Source: Linnemannia hyalina | Taxonomy: Eukaryota > Mortierellomycota > Mortierellomycetes > Mortierellales > Mortierellaceae | Length of the DNA: 64,000 nt | Direction of reading: 5' to 3' | Assembly (NCBI GenBank): GCA_019671135.1 | Contig: JAHRHY010000002.1 | Coordinates: 2,356,001 to 2,420,000 of the forward strand | Part shown: in pieces, positions 37,413 to 50,945 of the stretch | Numbering within the stretch: position 1 is the first letter of the stretch | Layout: every line of letters begins with the position of its first letter | Notes under the pieces: generated by a model | What the model was told of the DNA's origin: nothing | The model's input: the letters and a program-made list of their open reading frames with translations, nothing else | Database searches by the model: none | Position numbers and translations under genes: made by a program

Positions 37413-38098
37413 TTGTTGTAAGAAGATGGAAATGGACGTATTGCTGTTGCTGCTAGGACTAGGCACGAAAGCGTGTTAGTAATGGGGTTGAGGAAGAGCG
37501 CTAGTATTAGAACTGGTGAAGAAGTGAAAGGTACGAGATTAACATTGAGGATGAAAAGTGAGAGAGAAAAAAATAAGGGTTAGAAAAACGTCAAAGAAAA
37601 GGAAAAGAGGCTGGTATGTGTGCCACGGTCCACTTTTTGATCCATGTAACCGTCTCTGTGCAAGGTCTCGTTATAGGAGTGAAAAGGCAGACTTGTTCAT
37701 GTAATGTGTAAGTAGGGTTAAGAGCGAAAAAGAAAAATGCCCCGGCAAGGAGGTAATGAGATCGAAGAGGAGAAAGCGCCGTTTATCTTTGTCCCTCCTC
37801 CTCCTACTAGGATGGAAGTTGTGCCGGTACAACAACGATATTCAATTGAGAGCAAAGGAAACATCTCTCATTCTTGTCTGTGTGTTCAACCGTTTTTGAT
37901 CTGCCATTCTGCTTTAAAGTTTTTTATTACTACTTTCTTTCTTGTCGGAGAGAAAAGTGTATTTGCACACTCACCCATGACGAGTTGACATAACAGCCAT
38001 TATGGCTATCTGACGATCTTGTTAACGTCTCCGAGGGGAAGAGAGCCTATGTTGGACTGGTATTGTTGGTCAGCAATTGCTTTCTGCTGTGTGTATGT
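37413..38098. other. Intergenic interval before the inverted-repeat element
   Basis: No supported gene. A short open frame at 37737-37988 on the plus strand has no recognisable features. Confidence 0.45.
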
Positions 38099-38345
38099 GT
38101 CAGAGTTTCACTCTGATAAGGTTACACTAACCTATGACGCCACCAACATTTCTAGACTTTTCTTCCCTCTGATTACTAATCAAAGCTACGCCTCATAGAA
38201 TCCTCTAGAAACCCAACACGACAACTATCTAGCATTCACTCACGTATAAATTCCCCAACCAACAACTAGATAGCCCCTTAGTTCATAACTCTCTTTATTA
38301 AAAACACTCAAAAGCACACAACGTACCCTCGCCTTGTTGCAATAT
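38099..38345 (+). repeat. Left terminal inverted repeat
   Basis: Reverse complement of 38992-39238 with about three differences (near 38115, 38265 and 38342). It starts GTCAGAGTTTCACTCT and ends CCTTGTTGCAATAT. Confidence 0.9.
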
Positions 38346-38991: not shown

Positions 38992-39238
38992 ATACTGCAA
39001 CAAGGCGAGGGTACGTTGTGTGCTTTTGAGTGTTTTTAATAAAGAGAGTTATGAACTAAGGGGCTATCTAGGTGTTGGTTGGGGAATTTATACGTGAGTG
39101 AATGCTAGATAGTTGTCGTGTTGGGTTTCTAGAGGATTCTATGAGGCGTAGCTTTGATTAGTAATCAGAGGGAAGAAAAGTCTAGAAATGTTGGTGGCGT
39201 CATAGGTTAGTGTAACCTTATTAGAGTGAAACTCTGAC
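38992..39238 (-). repeat. Right terminal inverted repeat
   Basis: Inverted partner of 38099-38345; ends ...GAAACTCTGAC at 39238. It contains the probable polyadenylation signal of the cargo gene. Confidence 0.9.
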
Positions 39239-39670
39239 AACAAAAGCATCGACAACGCAAGGATTGATAGAGCCGACATTGAGAGCATGTTCATGTGAGG
39301 AAGAACATTGAAAAGCCCTTAAGTCGACATCAATTAGAAAAAAAAAAGAAAGAGAGAGAGAGATGTTGTTCTTTCGAACAAATCTATGTATTGCCTTTTC
39401 CCATGTGGCCACGCCCGAACAGCCTAGTTCTCTGCAGCCTTACGAGGTGAATAGAACGCATCTGCTTATTACGGCGGTTTAAAATCCAATCATTTTTTGC
39501 CAAAGATTTTTTTTTGCTGGCGAAGGCTTGTGTTATTGCATGAGTCTTTCAAAGTAAACTAAAGTCTAAACGTTTTCTCTACTAGGCTGACTTGAATTTC
39601 TCTCGTCTGTCGAAAGGAAAACGCGTGTGTATTGATTCTCTATGAGTATCGTTCAAAAAATAATAATCGA
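39239..39670. other. Interval between the element and the LSU rRNA fragment
   Basis: AT-rich, with no coding region. The part adjoining the rRNA 3' end (about 39480-39670) could be external transcribed spacer carried along with the rRNA fragment, but this cannot be shown from the window. Confidence 0.35.
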
Positions 39671-43417: not shown

Positions 43418-43605
43418 GCAGCGACTTCCCCTCTTCTCATCACTCTCATCTTCTTCCTCAACTCTCTACAATATCCAACAAGGTAAGCAACTCTCCAGAA
43501 TCCCATGCCTTCGAGATGTCTGTGCTTGGTGTATTTTCATGTCATTCTCACACGCACGTATCTCGTTCTTCAAATTACTGCGCATAATAGACTTGGAACT
43601 TCAAC

Positions 43606-43866
43606 ATGCTTGCTTCAAAGTACCTCGCTACGATCGGTTTCTTTATTTTGTTCATTTCTCCCGCTTTGGCGGCTCCTGGTGGGGAATCACAACTGACAAC
43701 CAAGTCCCAGGAACCAGGTGCTGAAGACACGCCTGCAACTTCTATCGAGGATCCATCCGCCTCTGCAATCTGTCGTAGATGCTCTTTCCCTTGCAGCGCC
43801 TATTGCTGTCCTCTTGGCACACGCTATTGTCTTCGCTACAGAGGAAAATGCTACTGTGTAAAATGA
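43606..43866 (+). CDS. Secreted eight-cysteine peptide
   Basis: An 86-residue precursor of unrecognised family. The signal peptide is MLASKYLATIGFFILFISPA, cleaved near ALAAP. An acidic, threonine-rich propeptide-like stretch (about residues 25-54) precedes a compact C-terminal domain of about 32 residues with eight cysteines: C-x2-C-x3-C-x3-CC-x6-C-x6-C-x-C. A basic, tyrosine-containing loop (GTRYCLRYRGKCYC) closes it. The CC pair and the closing C-x-C resemble knottin-type or other disulphide-rich peptides, including antimicrobial peptides, but no family can be assigned. A TATA box, a leader intron and the clean signal peptide argue that it is a real, expressed gene. Confidence 0.75.
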   Translation: MLASKYLATIGFFILFISPALAAPGGESQLTTKSQEPGAEDTPATSIEDPSASAICRRCSFPCSAYCCPLGTRYCLRYRGKCYCVK

Positions 43867-44267: not shown

Positions 44268-47200
44268 TCAAGGGTCTTGATCTTCCTCATTATCTTGTTG
44301 ACTCTCGCGAGACAGGATGGACGGCCAAGTCTGGGTTCTCATCCATTGCAGTGTTGCCTGTGCGATATTGTGTGCTGCATTGTGGTCCCGATCGCGTTCC
44401 TGGCCACATCTATAGAAGCTGATAGCCTCCTGCTCAAGGTCGCAAGCTCCATGCACTGGCAGCACGTCACACTGGTCCGATACTCGTCCGCGCACATAAT
44501 AATCATATTCCGAGCCTCGATCTAATCATACAAAGTAAAAAAAAGGCCAAACTTGTATTAGTGGGCAGTACAGGGTAATAGGAAGAAAGTTTCTTGACAT
44601 GGAAAGTAAAAAGGAAAAATAGCATTACCTTCTTCTTCAATAACCTCAAGAATGTCATATGCAATGAAGGTCCTCGTGTCGATCCAAAGTTACTGTCTCC
44701 GACAATAAAGAGCGGTCTGACTTGTCCTGGCTGCCATCTGTCGGTGCATCCTGTCTCCTGCATGATCCTGTCGATGCCCTTGTGCTTGATGGCATACTCG
44801 GCAACCTTTAGGTTCCTCTTCTTGATCTTGTAGGACGCCGATCCATAGAACTTTCGCAGAGGCTCCTGAACGTCGATCACGGAAACGACATGGTTCTCAA
44901 CGGAGGTCTGCAGAGTGCGCCACGACTCGTGCTGCTGCTGCCGGGTACCGTTGGAGGGCATCGGAGGCGTCTTGCATGGAACAATATGAGCCTCCAGTCG
45001 AGTAATCGTCATCACGGTGCCAGAGAGGTCGTTCCTCTTCAATTGGTGGACAACCTTGGCATTGCGCTTCATACCGGCGGTGACTCTATTGAGCCGCTTA
45101 GCTGACTCTTTCAAAGACCCTTGGGAGATTGTCATGTTCTTGACTACCCCGGGGTTCCTCGAATCCATAATGACCGCCGTTGCCGTGCTCGCGATTCCCG
45201 ATCAATCCCAATGATACAGTACTCTTCCGCGCTCAAAGACCTTGCCAACAACATCAGCCTCGTTTCCAGTGCCACCTCCACATCGTCCAACAGCATTCTT
45301 GTGGTCCTGGACTGGTTGGGCAGATCTTGAAAAGGCTTTCTCTGGGTGACATCAATGACAAGAGCCTTCAAATCGTGTCCGTTCGTCTGTATGGTGCCCG
45401 TCAACTCTCTCCTTCGACCATAATAACGGGCTCGATCGATCTCTCCAAGACGACGGTACTCCTCTGGAGTCCTCAAATGGTCCTTGATAAAAGCCTGTAG
45501 CGCATCCGAGGAGGAAGTCACCTCATCGCCGGTCGCCCGAATGGAGTCTTGCAACAACCTCTCGTACTTGATTCTGTCGGTCAACGAAAAATCGAAGAAT
45601 GCTCGAGGCTTGAACGAGTGACGGACGATCGTCGAGGGGTTGAGAAGACAAACTGACTTGTGGTAGTCGATCTTGCTGCTGAAAAAAGGCGGTGTATCAT
45701 CTCTCCTTGATGACTGGTCGTGGGGGTGAATATGGTTCTGAAAGTCTCCTTGGTCGTTGGGGAGCTCGGTCCATGGGAGATAATATCCAAGATGTTCTGC
45801 TCGGTGAGTGTGATGTACTGATCGCCGAACTTTGACTCTGGAAAAAAACTTGAACTGCTTGGAGGCAGGGAGCCGGGAGTTGAGGATCCAGAAAAGATAA
45901 GAAGGTCGGTATAATGGGCTGGTGCCTGCATCGATGTCGATTGTATCTAGGATAGGTTTTCCACCAGTGGGCGATTCGCACCATACCCGGTTGGACTCTC
46001 TCAGTCGCTCCAGTAACTCCTTGATATCGGTCGTGAAGTACGTCCTGAGAGTGTCGCTGATGGCATCGCGGACGCCCGGAAAGACTTGACTGATCTGATC
46101 GATGTTTTCATCTAAATCCGGCATCTGGTGAGAGGAACGGCAGACGACCAACTGAAAGTGTTGGATGGCTTCAATCGCGTAGGCCACTCCTGCTCCTTCA
46201 TTGGCTCGAGGGTTGTTGGGTAGCTGTTTGTGCCAATTGAAAATATCGCTGACCAGCTTGTAGATAAAGTCCGAGTCCGACCTAACACCGATGAACCGGA
46301 GGCGGGCGTTGCATGCCTCCCTGTCATTAGCGTTCAATGGGTCGGGGTGTTCAGTGATGACCTTGGCGGTGTAACAGAATATCACCAGCTGCACGAGTCG
46401 TTTGAGGTCTGTGATGACACGCACGGCCTCGTTTAAACAGGCGTAGACATCCTTGACGATCGTGGCGTGATCCGAGAGAGACCCAATACTGTTGGTGCGT
46501 AGACCTTCTTCCAGGCAGCTTGGCACTGTTCCAATGAACAAAGTGGTCTGAAGAAATCGACTCTGCAATGTTGTCTTTATGATCGACGAAGGAGACCGTT
46601 TGTCGGGTTTGTCGCTTTCCCCTCGAATTTGCGCGGAACGGGGTTGAACATTTGAGCTCGTTTTTGGTTCGTCGTCGTTGTCTGGCGTCCTCAATGATGG
46701 GCTGAGGGGTTATGTTATCCGGGGGCGGTCGCTGCGGAACGACGAAGGTGAAGGCTTGGAAGAGGTTTGAAGGCATGAACGGAGTATGGGACCCCTCCTT
46801 CTTCTTGCGCTTCTGTCTGCACTTTGATCGTTTTCGCCTTGGTCTCTGCGGATCAGCCAAACCTGGGCTGGGGTCCAACGATGACAGTGAACCAACAAAA
46901 GGTGACCCTCCAAGACCAGGAGGGAGACCCATGGTGCCCGAGGCAGGGATGGGTATGGACGTGGTCCACATTGCACCATCCGTCAAAAAATGATTGCCGC
47001 CTATTGCTGTTCCTGGGCCAGTGGGGGCGGCAGCGAGAGCGGCAGCTTGTTGTGTTGGTTGTTGTTGCTGTGCTGGCCGATCTTGGGGGATAGTAGGATG
47101 TTTGGTGGCAGAAATGAAGGATGATCGCTGAACCCTCTTCACAAAGGACAGATCGACAGGGCGTCTTTTGAAAGGCGAACCACCCAGCCCAGGTGGAAGA

Positions 47201-48410
47201 CCGAACGGAAAGGGACCTTGCATCTCCGCGCGAATTCCTGTAGCCACGGCGTTGTGACAATCGCGATAGGCTTGAAGGTAATCCGCCACCTTTGTGAGAT
47301 GCTGTGCAATGCGGTCGCCGGTGTCGTTGGTGAAAGGGACTTGTTCATGAGTAAAATCCTCATGTTGGTGGAAGAAGACGTCGCTAGCGTGCTTGTAATA
47401 GCTGGGGCTCAGAAAGCAGCCGTCGACCTTGCTGAGAACATCCGGGTGGTGGCAGTAAAGTCCAAGTAACTTGTCCATAGCCGCAGGAGAGGCTTCGCCG
47501 TCGACGTCGGTCAGGTACTCGGCCTCGGGTATCGACTTTAGAATGTCCAGATTCTTCCTGAAGCCGAGACCAGAGACGCTTTTGGAATAGTCGTTAGTGG
47601 AGACCGCCGCAGCGGTCTTCCACACGACGAGGGATGCCTCAAGACGGTTGAGAATAGGACCCATGTGAAACTCGCGAAAATGGCTCTTGTTCTTGCGATC
47701 CTGCCGAAGGACAATGGCGTACCCATGACAAAAAAGTCAGAGTCATATGTCGCCGGGATGACATTTCCGAGAAGGACCATCTTGCGGGCGATGCACACAT
47801 CTGACTCGCCCAAACAATCATGCACCGTCCACCCAAATTTTCGGAGGTCGTTCTTGAACAATCCCATGACATCGGACGACAGCACTTGGACAAACGACAA
47901 TCGAGCCTTAATTTTGCCTGACAGCCGGGTGATCTTTTGTCTTGTACTTCGAGTGTACAACCGGTCAATGTCCATTTGTAGCCGGGGTTCCAGAATGGCA
48001 TCCACTCGGTCGAGCAGTCCCTCAACCTGCCTGGCCAGAGTCTGGCGGTCGCCCATACGAGCTTGGCGAGTCGCAAACTTCTGATCCGAGGCGGCACCGT
48101 CAAAATGTAGGACAGTCACTCCAGGCACGCAGCCATACTCCAACAGCTTGGTGTGGACAACGTCGACCAGTAAATTCATAGGCTTGGACTCCTTGATGGA
48201 ACCACCGGACCTGAGAGCTCGTTCGTACGAGAGCAAGTGACTCTCGCGGATGATATCGCGCCACACAATCTCCTCGCTGTTCGTTCTGGCAGTGGTCTTT
48301 ATGAGAAACCACACGAGAGACATTGCGTCGGCATCGGTTGGAGTGATGTTGGATGGTGTTCCAACGATGTTCAGCGCTCTCATCATAGTAAGGAAAGACG
48401 GTAACCCCAT
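44268..48410 (-). pseudogene. Decayed locus: FEN1/XPG-like (PIN) nuclease region followed by TnpB/Fanzor-like RuvC nuclease region
   Basis: One strand holds about 1370 codons in shifting frames. Residues about 1-290 (48410 to about 47540) are FEN1/XPG-like: MGLPSFLT start, LHFDGAASDQKFATRQAR, the XPG-I pattern HDCLGESDVCIARK and TYDSDFFV, then the H2TH-like VSTNDYSKSVSGLGFRK. A low-complexity linker repeats GLPPGLGGSPF twice. From about 46600 to 44268 the sequence is Fanzor/TnpB-like: LTGTIQTNGHDLKALVID, RuvC-I EEYCIIGID (Asp codon at 45201), VVKNMTISQGSLKES, KFYGSASYKIKKRNL, FIVGDSNFGSTRGPS, RuvC-II ADEYRTSVTC (Glu near 44484), a CxxC knuckle, and RuvC-III RDRDHNAAHNIA (Asp codon near 44386). 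An intron (44522-44628) is recognisable. Frame changes occur near 47730, 46650, 45870/45700, 45195 and 44450, so no full protein can be made as read. Whether the two halves were one protein or two adjacent genes is not settled. Confidence 0.8.
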
Positions 48411-50945
48411 GATGATTTGCTAATTAACGAGAGACAAAATAAGAAGAGGATTAACGTTAACTCAAGACCCAGATGTCGTTGTACATGTATGGCAAATGTG
48501 TGGTGTTTTCAAGCGATCAGCAATCATAATTCAGTATCACCTACAGGAGAGAGAAACACCAACCGCAAGGGAGCGTGGGAGAGACGGGCACTAAGAACGA
48601 AAGGTAAAGATATGCAAACGGACAATGAACACGACGTGTACTATGAAAGAGTAGCAGGAGAGAGAGTTAAATCAGGCGTTGTGTTTAACACGAACCGGGT
48701 TACCAGAGAAAACAAAGAGAGACCAGTTTAGTTACAGGAGACGTCAATAAGTCCTTTTGTTTGATCTGTTTGAATACCGGGGAAGAATTAAGTGGGCAGG
48801 AGACTTGGATGCTAAGTTGAAGAGTAGGGATCAAATGAGGATGTTTGTCAGCAAGGTGAGCTTGCATCTGTGGAATCAGATTTGACAAGAATGTTGCATA
48901 GACGGCATACCGGGGAAGGAAAGAGCGAAGGGAAAGGGAGAAGAACAACTTCGATACTCTGCGGTCGTGCTTCGATTAATGGCTCAACAATGGACAAGAA
49001 ACTTGGTACGGTGGGAGAATGGATGGCGTGTTGTTGATAGTGACGATGGTTTCAAAGGGGTGTGGTTTGTTGCTTGTACAGAGAGAATGGAGAGCCTGTG
49101 TCGGGGACAAGAGACAAAAAGGGGTGTATATAGAAATGGGTATTAGCGCGTCTGTTGAAGAAGAGGGATCAATCACGGTCTCTTGTTTATGTAGAGGTCC
49201 TTACAGATCACGGTGGCCGTTGAATACGAAAGGTACTCTCGAGAAGATTGTTGTTCGATAGTAGTGAGTGCCACAACCACCTTCTTTCTCATCTTTCATT
49301 TTCCTTCATAATTTTGACTTTTTTTGACGACTCACTGTTGACCGTGATTTTTTTCAAAAGAACATACACACACACATACACACATACACACATACACACA
49401 TACACACATACACACATACACACATACACACATACACACATACACACATACACACATACACACATACACACACATATACACACAGACACACACACACACA
49501 CACTCTCTCTCTCCACTCTTAGCACTCGTCCTCCTACCACATTCCAGGCAACGGCGCTCGTAGTACCCATCTCTTGTGCAATAAACGGTATCTCTTTATC
49601 CACAACACCCTGTTTCATATTCTTTGTCTTCGCTTGGCTCTTTGTACCCACTATTTCTATTATGGTTTCTCTAGCGACATCAAATGTGGGAGTCGTAAGA
49701 TAGAGTGTCCCAGCAACGACAATTGTTTATTTGTGGTATCTGTGCCTCTTACTTCGGCATCTCTCGACTCTGTTGGCCCTCTTCCCACCGCCATCTTGTT
49801 CTATCTTCTGGTGTTGCTTGATCTTAAAGATCGTAACCTGAAGTCGACTGCAAGTGAGCTGATAGTCCTTAGGCTTCAGAGACATGGTGACACTGCTTTA
49901 AAAACATCGATTAGTTCCCCAACGTGGTACTATTGCAGCACAATGTGGGACGAAGAGACTGTCGTCCACAATATCTTCATTATCAACATTCTCCGTTATG
50001 CCAAAAAAATGAACAATGCGTAAAAGCTAAGGCAGAAATTGTCGAATCTGTTTTTCAATGGTCTATCAAACCTTTTATATAGCTCTACCCCACCTTTGAA
50101 GTAAATACTCCATGTAGATTTTGAAAATCGTATTACAGTGTGTCAATCATCATTGTGAACAGATAACTGTATTTGAAAAGCGGGAAAGATCAAGACAGAA
50201 GAGTATCAGCGCTTCATGTTCTATTTTGTGAAAGGCCGAGGGTTTATTTTGCTTTTTTTTTTGGTCAATTCTCAATCATTCTGTTTAAAACTAACCTGAA
50301 GCGTTCCCAAGATCAAATACTACAAATCCTTAATAAGTGAAGGTCTAAAAGGACTTTTTGATGGCGAAAAGATGGAAGTGTGAATAGTAACAATGATGTA
50401 TGCAAATTATTGTCTCATCAGCATTTCCACGCGTCCATTCTCAGTCTTTTGACCATTTCAATCCCAAGACATGATTTTTTCATACACAAATTACATAACC
50501 AGGTCCGCAAAGAGTCTATAAACAATAAACTATTAGTAGGCACGCGCGAGAAAGGTCTTTCTAGGGTATTTCTATAGCAAACAAAGTACTCAAAGGGTAT
50601 CTAGTAGTTTACACAATCATCTAGTACTGTATATGTGATAGAAGAAGGAAGAATCTTCTATTCCGACTGATGTGAGCCTTAGCCACAAGTGAGCCACATT
50701 TTTTTAGTCACAAGTTAAGCATTTAGCCACATTTTTTATTATTCGCTATAAAAGATCCTCTATATTTGAAGACACTTCTCCATCAACGGCCTGCCGCCTT
50801 TTATCATATGTCATTCCCAGAACTTAGAGCATTCACGATCCCGTCGTAAGTTGAAATCATAATGAACTTCCTTGCTACTGTTCGTTCATTGACATGTCTT
50901 TATTATTTGACACTAGAACTCGCAAAATCTTTGGGGTCCTGAGGC
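48411..50945. other. Gene-free 2.5 kb interval
   Basis: No supported gene. It includes the promoter side of the Fanzor-like locus, a microsatellite at 49362-49502, and several short open frames (for example 49574-50023) without recognisable features. AATAAA and TATAAAAGATCC (50747) occur but could not be tied to genes with confidence. Confidence 0.45.
49362..49502 (+). repeat. (ACACACAT)n microsatellite
   Basis: About 140 bp of a CA-rich octamer repeat (CACACATA units) ending in a pure CA run and a short CT run. Confidence 0.95.

Follow-up and report, generated by a model that had tools for sequence, protein, structure and literature searches.

XPG-type enzymes cut 5' flaps and bubbles. Fanzors, eukaryotic relatives of CRISPR nucleases that RNA normally directs to their target, have drawn interest as tools for genome editing. 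Excerpts of three reports (PMC3627910, PMC10432273, PMC10711439) describe Fanzor1 proteins as eukaryotic homologues of TnpB that reside in MuDR, Mariner, Helitron and other transposons. In the excerpted part of PMC10432273, Fanzors use an RNA from the right end of their element and cut DNA next to a target-adjacent motif (TAM), and excerpts of PMC3627910 describe fungal Fanzor1 elements with MuDR-like terminal inverted repeats (TIRs), 9-bp duplications and no transposase. Here we analyse a decayed gene in a 64,000-nucleotide stretch (the window) of contig 12 of Linnemannia hyalina (Mortierellaceae; genome of 51.5 Mb in 50 contigs). Judged by its motifs and profile matches, the window gene is a dead member of a Mortierellaceae gene family whose proteins consist of an XPG/FEN1-type nuclease, a linker and a C-terminal Fanzor with a zinc finger, and many members of this family are carried by DNA transposons. 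We read the family as encoding a dual-nuclease, RNA-guided transposon enzyme; for this whole picture, in which we infer both RNA guidance and XPG activity, we estimate a probability of about 0.6.

That the XPG and Fanzor parts form one polypeptide we regard as almost certain from the coding sequences of the relatives. In the same genome, locus L013 (C23:1073817-1078183) contains a stop-free frame of 1398 codons spanning the XPG half and linker, RuvC-I and the larger part of the RuvC domain, from which a canonical intron leads into a last exon carrying the zinc finger and RuvC-III. The product, P0001, is the annotated L. hyalina protein KI688_008249 (1413 aa, the long frame plus one further exon). 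Successive protein searches gave 2 and 31 homologues and a profile search then 5, of which 3 were new, for a total of 36 annotated homologues under eight genus names (Linnemannia, Mortierella, Entomortierella, Benniella, Dissophora, Podila, Haplosporangium and Actinomortierella). All belong to the Mortierellaceae, a range that holds within the approximately 8000 candidates sharing most words that the second and third of these searches scored. Both XPG and RuvC/TNB profiles matched 28 of the 36, with RuvC/TNB only in 7 and XPG only in 1, and the counts were the same, with the same 28 proteins showing both halves, when the profiles lacked P0001 and the row of family A (a transposon family described below). 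Because partial records, a fusion query and profiles containing family members enter into this count, it shows an architecture and not an unbiased frequency. Full-length members measure 1160-1413 aa. The first-pass annotation had proposed that the two nucleases were encoded either as one polypeptide or as a pair within a mobile unit. The long P0001 frame, the proteins with both halves, and matches to the TnpB and flap-endonuclease models of NCBIfam all favour the former, and intact homologues do not always encode the halves as separate, unrelated genes.

Genome-wide, we listed 91 C-terminal (PF07282) and 94 XPG-like matches, both numbers being lower bounds. An XPG match lies upstream, on the same strand and within 8 kb, of 62 of the 91 C-terminal matches, and in 60 of these the distance is 2.8-4.0 kb; the same test applied to control pairings yielded 5 downstream and 3 opposite-strand cases. 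Pairwise distances of the XPG and RuvC halves correlate (r 0.79; 0 of 2000 permutations) among 20 of the 36 proteins, those in which each half offered enough residues. Between families A and B, the proportion of synonymous differences (pS) is 0.80 in the XPG half and 0.83 in the RuvC half, values that are saturated, and the proportion of nonsynonymous differences (pN) is 0.35 and 0.26, respectively, as measured on the 308 and 459 codons that lie in windows where 6 or more of 21 residues are identical. The unfiltered XPG comparison gave a pS of 0.76, a pN of 0.36 and a pN/pS of 0.47. On these substitution patterns, both halves have been maintained as protein between the two families.

Both halves could be related to known nucleases. 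The precomputed Pfam annotation of P0021 lists XPG_I, XPG_I_2 and TNB. At E 0.01, Pfam identified TNB in 22 and XPG_I in 9 of 33 members, and of 12 members compared with NCBIfam, 11 matched TnpB and 9 matched archaeal FEN-1 (fen_arch), with the TnpB and flap-endonuclease matches below the curated cut-offs in the one member inspected. Profile A2, built from 12 of the 33 homologues then known, matched FEN-1 (9e-13), RAD2 (3e-10), XPG (3e-7), human FEN1 (2e-5), EXO1 (3e-5) and GEN1 (0.003) in the PDB through its N-terminus, and LaTranC (0.002) through its C-terminus. Profile searches, suggested as a check in the first-pass annotation, accordingly placed the C-terminal part with TnpB/Fanzor. We rejected a chance set of motifs as an explanation. 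An endogenous virus was also rejected; no viral gene was noticed, though no search aimed at viral genes was made. Scans of IMG/VR and GTDB with A2 yielded 38 and 35 stretches with a pattern, among which tblastn revealed no relative; as each scan relied on two short peptide patterns, this speaks weakly against a viral or prokaryotic origin.

A phmmer search of P0001 against the PDB returned nothing at E 1. Pfam was nearly blind on the separate window pieces, where it gave only PF07282 (E 0.0015, below its cut-off), and it assigned no family to the 1398-aa frame of L013; profiles built from relatives were required. By BLASTP, seven segments of the window match P0001 (E 8e-30 to 9e-5). Those corresponding to P0001 97-254, 296-404, 662-1153, 1155-1330, 1331-1379 and 1361-1404, of which the last two overlap, are collinear with the window gene, and the seventh (P0001 929-986) lies in a different frame inside the 662-1153 range. 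The Fanzor N-terminal part of the window is 24% identical to P0001 662-1153 and 39% identical to P0001 929-986. XPG profile A3 matched the two XPG pieces of the window with E-values of 7e-19 and 5e-9, and still did so (2e-14 and 2e-7) when rebuilt without P0001. RuvC profile A4 matched the window at 6e-19 and 4e-8; since A4 without P0001 and the family A row found no match within the window, the window RuvC half is tied to the family via P0001 and P0002 (37% identity) and not via the main group.

The active-site residues of both nucleases are largely retained. In the alignment of 36 rows, the RuvC triad is conserved in 35/35 (D979), 25/26 (E1166) and 23/23 (D1200) of the rows with a letter at that position, and the window carries the corresponding residues in IIGID, ADEY and RDRD. 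Seven XPG catalytic acids were scored by FEN1 numbering. Among the ten homologues with a letter at all 17 scored sites, the RuvC D, E and D are kept in 10/10 and all XPG residues in 9/10, the exception being P0023, in which the first Asp differs, possibly through an error in start prediction. Covered XPG catalytic acids other than the first I-region Glu are retained among sequences just 22-44% identical. The RuvC glutamate precedes the zinc finger as E-x6-C in the window and in the six rows of A4; a glutamate six residues before the first zinc-finger Cys is given as the typical Fanzor arrangement in excerpts of PMC10711439. The same excerpts report DPG at RuvC-I as near exclusive to Fanzors. 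Because L replaces P here (DLG) in 30 of 35 homologues, the main group is, on this motif, unusual among Fanzors; DPG is present in P0001, P0002 and families A and B, and in the window the frame breaks right behind the D of IIGID.

Relatives of the window copy are carried by eukaryotic transposons, as their element ends and, in one case, a 9-bp duplication show. Compact elements begin 208-242 bp ahead of the start of the XPG match, as judged by comparison of near-identical copies, and the three that were measured span 4.5-4.8 kb, leaving no space for a gene beyond the XPG-Fanzor span. The compact element on C13 (857698 to ~862480) is flanked on both sides by ATTTGCATG, a perfect 9-bp duplication. 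On C17, 8 of 9 duplication bases match, the ends being less certain, and no 9-bp duplication was seen by eye at the C4 copy or at the two ends read for C48:174688. By analogy, the compact elements look like the fungal Fanzor1 elements of the MuDR-like kind. The mobile unit of the first-pass annotation is supported for these relatives, through their ends and near-identical copies; for the window copy itself, a mobile setting is unsupported.

Family A is a larger element (~6.6 kb) with 12 copies that share an exact right end. Its exact left end, TTATCCCCTAGTTTG, is present in 11 of them and differs by one base in the twelfth. In a long DNA comparison that took in 4 of the 12 copies, one copy was 99.6-99.8% identical to the three others over ~6 kb. 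The flanks of the 12 copies are all different, with no target duplication visible by eye. Elements of the piggyBac type duplicate a TTAA target; no such duplication was seen in the 12 copies. The left end of family A holds a piece of a PF13843 transposase, of the piggyBac type, and family C holds another piece. The empty-site search provided one usable site for the 12 copies (four related sequences, L105-L108, against L059/L060), where 11 bp of target are missing at the insertion; this suggests that 11 bp were lost when family A inserted. A separate observation concerns the family A copy on C6 (L035 from 6029; C6:31528 onwards), which directly adjoins an old right-end motif of the compact type, possibly as a nested or guided insertion.

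The compact elements are closed by a conserved stretch with CTTCGGTGACGTAA directly past the stop codon. Allowing at most one mismatch, this motif occurs at 192 places, as against 11 for the reversed pattern, and many of the loci examined carry it downstream of the gene. A predicted UUCG-capped hairpin at the right end, which has moderate support, includes the terminal repeat. From 31 right ends, 14 were used for model A5, 11 for model A6 and 8 for folding, with L002, L060, L077, L078, L089 and L091 left out of A5 and A6; the eight folding z-scores were -3.31, -3.23, -2.89, -2.71, -1.28, -0.84, 0.03 and 0.38. Across 18 sources, the 14-end model matched 11 times at E up to 1, including ends outside its training set. 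It had no match at L013 or at L039 and L042, whose elements end differently, and in the window neither the motif nor a right-end model matched. Rfam gave no match in the 4 loci submitted. We consider the conserved right end a candidate only for a guide-RNA scaffold.

These elements can be assembled into a working model of the dual-nuclease enzyme. An RNA transcribed across the right end, with the element end as scaffold and the flanking DNA as guide, would load the Fanzor half, and the resulting complex would open target DNA matching the flank, such as the site just vacated by the element. The RuvC half would then cut this target, and the XPG half would process the R-loop or the cut ends, trimming the 5' flap or the bubble junction that the R-loop leaves behind. 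A trimmed end would favour copying of the element back from the sister copy, by which the element would be kept and would spread.

Several of our results weigh against this picture. No XPG partner was detected for 29 of the 91 C-terminal matches; of four such loci inspected, two carry a Fanzor part and, over the stretch examined, no XPG part, and two are a last exon only. Without two outliers the correlation between the halves is 0.50, a value that was not permuted, and three recent duplicate pairs have pN/pS ratios of 0.16, 0.92 and 0.92 on few differences, which makes them uninformative on constraint. P0002 is without one zinc-finger Cys. At the right end, covariation is weak (term -0.15; double changes in 3 of 16 predicted pairs), folding is much better than in shuffles for just 4 of the 8 ends (z -2.7 or lower), and conservation of the hairpin could stem from selection at the DNA level because it overlaps the terminal repeat. 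Finally, families A and B have Q at FEN1's first I-region Glu. This Gln, together with an XPG region that is partly missing in a number of annotated models, would suit an XPG half that serves the Fanzor as an arm for DNA binding or dimerisation and is not used as a nuclease. We judge such a role unlikely, as the remaining catalytic acids are kept at the low identities given above and in nine of the ten homologues that cover all sites. The one-half proteins bear on a different possibility, namely that an XPG-like gene and a Fanzor gene are neighbours in one transposon and are joined only by gene predictors: 8 of the 36 annotated proteins show one half only by the profiles used, and L014 and families A and B each spread across several open frames, which makes their gene models dependent on splicing. 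In P0001, however, a single frame without interruption covers the XPG half and the greater part of the RuvC domain, so no splice choice joins the two, and proteins with both halves occur under eight genus names with the order and spacing of the halves conserved. Two neighbouring genes, an explanation strongly weakened by the P0001 frame, were rejected as extremely improbable.

How the elements move, and whether all copies still do, admits further alternatives. The fusion protein might itself mobilise its element without a DDE transposase, a notion encouraged by the three compact elements without room for another gene and by family A, with its lack of a visible target duplication and the 11 bp lost at one empty site. 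Yet the perfect duplication on C13 and the 8/9 match on C17 are consistent with a MuDR-type transposase that acts in trans, as in other fungal Fanzor elements (excerpts of PMC3627910), and pieces of the PF13843 transposase are found in family A and C elements; we hold self-mobilisation to be improbable. Its fuller version, in which a two-nuclease RNA-guided enzyme couples guided cutting with flap trimming and so moves its own single-gene transposon without a DDE transposase, strikes us as very improbable, and we are just as sceptical that family A movement, under that version, would proceed by short target loss without duplication. Some members, for example P0001 and the lineage of the window copy, might instead be host genes domesticated from a transposon. 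The P0001 frame is intact, and a homologue from Mortierella sp. GBA39 shares 89% identity with P0001 across 59% of the query. Neither L013 nor the window gave a right-end match, and L013 showed no convincing element ends by eye. Against this, the ends of an old transposon may be eroded, the window copy is broken, and this single P0001 homologue at 89% identity was found, so that we think domestication quite unlikely.

The window gene matches the first-pass annotation in its layout: every motif named there was found in place, and the two limits given for the gene are exactly a start and a stop codon.

Table 1. Layout of the decayed XPG-Fanzor gene in the window (window positions; motif coordinates are written in the direction of the gene)
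Feature	Position	Strand	Basis and remarks
Whole decayed XPG-Fanzor gene	44268..48410	minus	ATG at 48410, TGA at 44270-44268
XPG N-region and first part of I-region	47730..48410	minus	XPG profile A3; FDGAASDQK 48104-48078, GESDVC 47810-47793, YDSDFF 47747-47730
Remaining XPG region with H2TH-like segment, next frame	47200..47736	minus	A3; lower limit approximate; STNDYSKSVSGLG 47601-47563
Low-complexity linker	46600..47200	minus	By reading; limits approximate
Fanzor N-terminal/REC-like part	45216..46600	minus	P0001 identity; limits approximate; frame changes ~45845, ~45690
RuvC-I	45201..45215	minus	Motif reading; IIGID 45215-45201
RuvC body from RuvC-I to intron	44629..45201	minus	37% identity to P0001 1155-1330, E 8e-30
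GT-AG intron	44522..44628	minus	Position matches intron of intact P0001
RuvC-II alternative glutamate (ADEYRTS) and first CxxC	44453..44491	minus	E, then six residues, then first Cys; ADEYRTSVTC 44491-44462, CCQC 44464-44453
RuvC-III	44367..44396	minus	PF07282 E 0.0015; 48% identity to P0001 1361-1404; RDRDHNAAHN 44396-44367

The description of this copy as decayed was borne out by six frame changes, which together with one intron lie between its ATG and its stop. Two of them fall on T runs (T6 near 47733 and T7 near 45845) and may therefore reflect slippage or assembly error. The other four lie near 46.7 kb, near 45.69 kb, at 45.2 kb right behind IIGID, and near 44.4 kb, and the 46.7 kb change might be an intron. 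As assembled, the window copy cannot encode the whole protein.

Three further features were observed in the surroundings of the gene. An inverted repeat of 248 nt, 99% complementary, has its arms at window positions 38098-38345 and 38992-39239 with a spacing of 646 nt, and looks like a TIR element or a long hairpin. A long ACACACAT microsatellite occupies 49362-49500, ~1 kb upstream of the start of the XPG-Fanzor gene. On the plus strand, 43591-43866 contains a short open frame with a signal-like start and a cysteine-rich end, a possible small secreted protein.

Within open-licence papers, full-text searches turned up no XPG-Fanzor fusion. A natural fusion of a Fanzor to a flap/bubble nuclease, present under eight genus names and in multiplying elements, suggests that a step after the guided cut may belong to the system, and might show the way to editors in which end processing is built in.

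The family can be compared with three known systems. With Fanzor1 it has in common the RuvC D-E-D triad, the glutamate six residues before a C4 finger and a location in transposons, and its compact elements recall the fungal Fanzor1 TIR elements that, in excerpts of PMC3627910, have a 9-bp duplication and no transposase; it departs from Fanzor1 in the N-terminal XPG/FEN1 nuclease fused to it and in a RuvC-I of DL(G) in place of DPG in most homologues. With XPG/Rad2/FEN1 enzymes it shares the N and I regions, the DSD and NDY motifs, an H2TH-like segment and the structure matches to FEN-1 and RAD2. Here, however, this nuclease sits within a far longer protein that is mostly borne by transposons, and the FEN-1 and RAD2 matches of the inspected member are far below the NCBIfam cut-offs. 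The TnpB proteins of IS200/IS605 and IS607 resemble the family in their C-terminal RuvC/TNB domain and in the candidate RNA at the right end, whereas the family described here is eukaryotic and intron-containing, has no TnpA in sight, uses the alternative glutamate and carries an extra nuclease.

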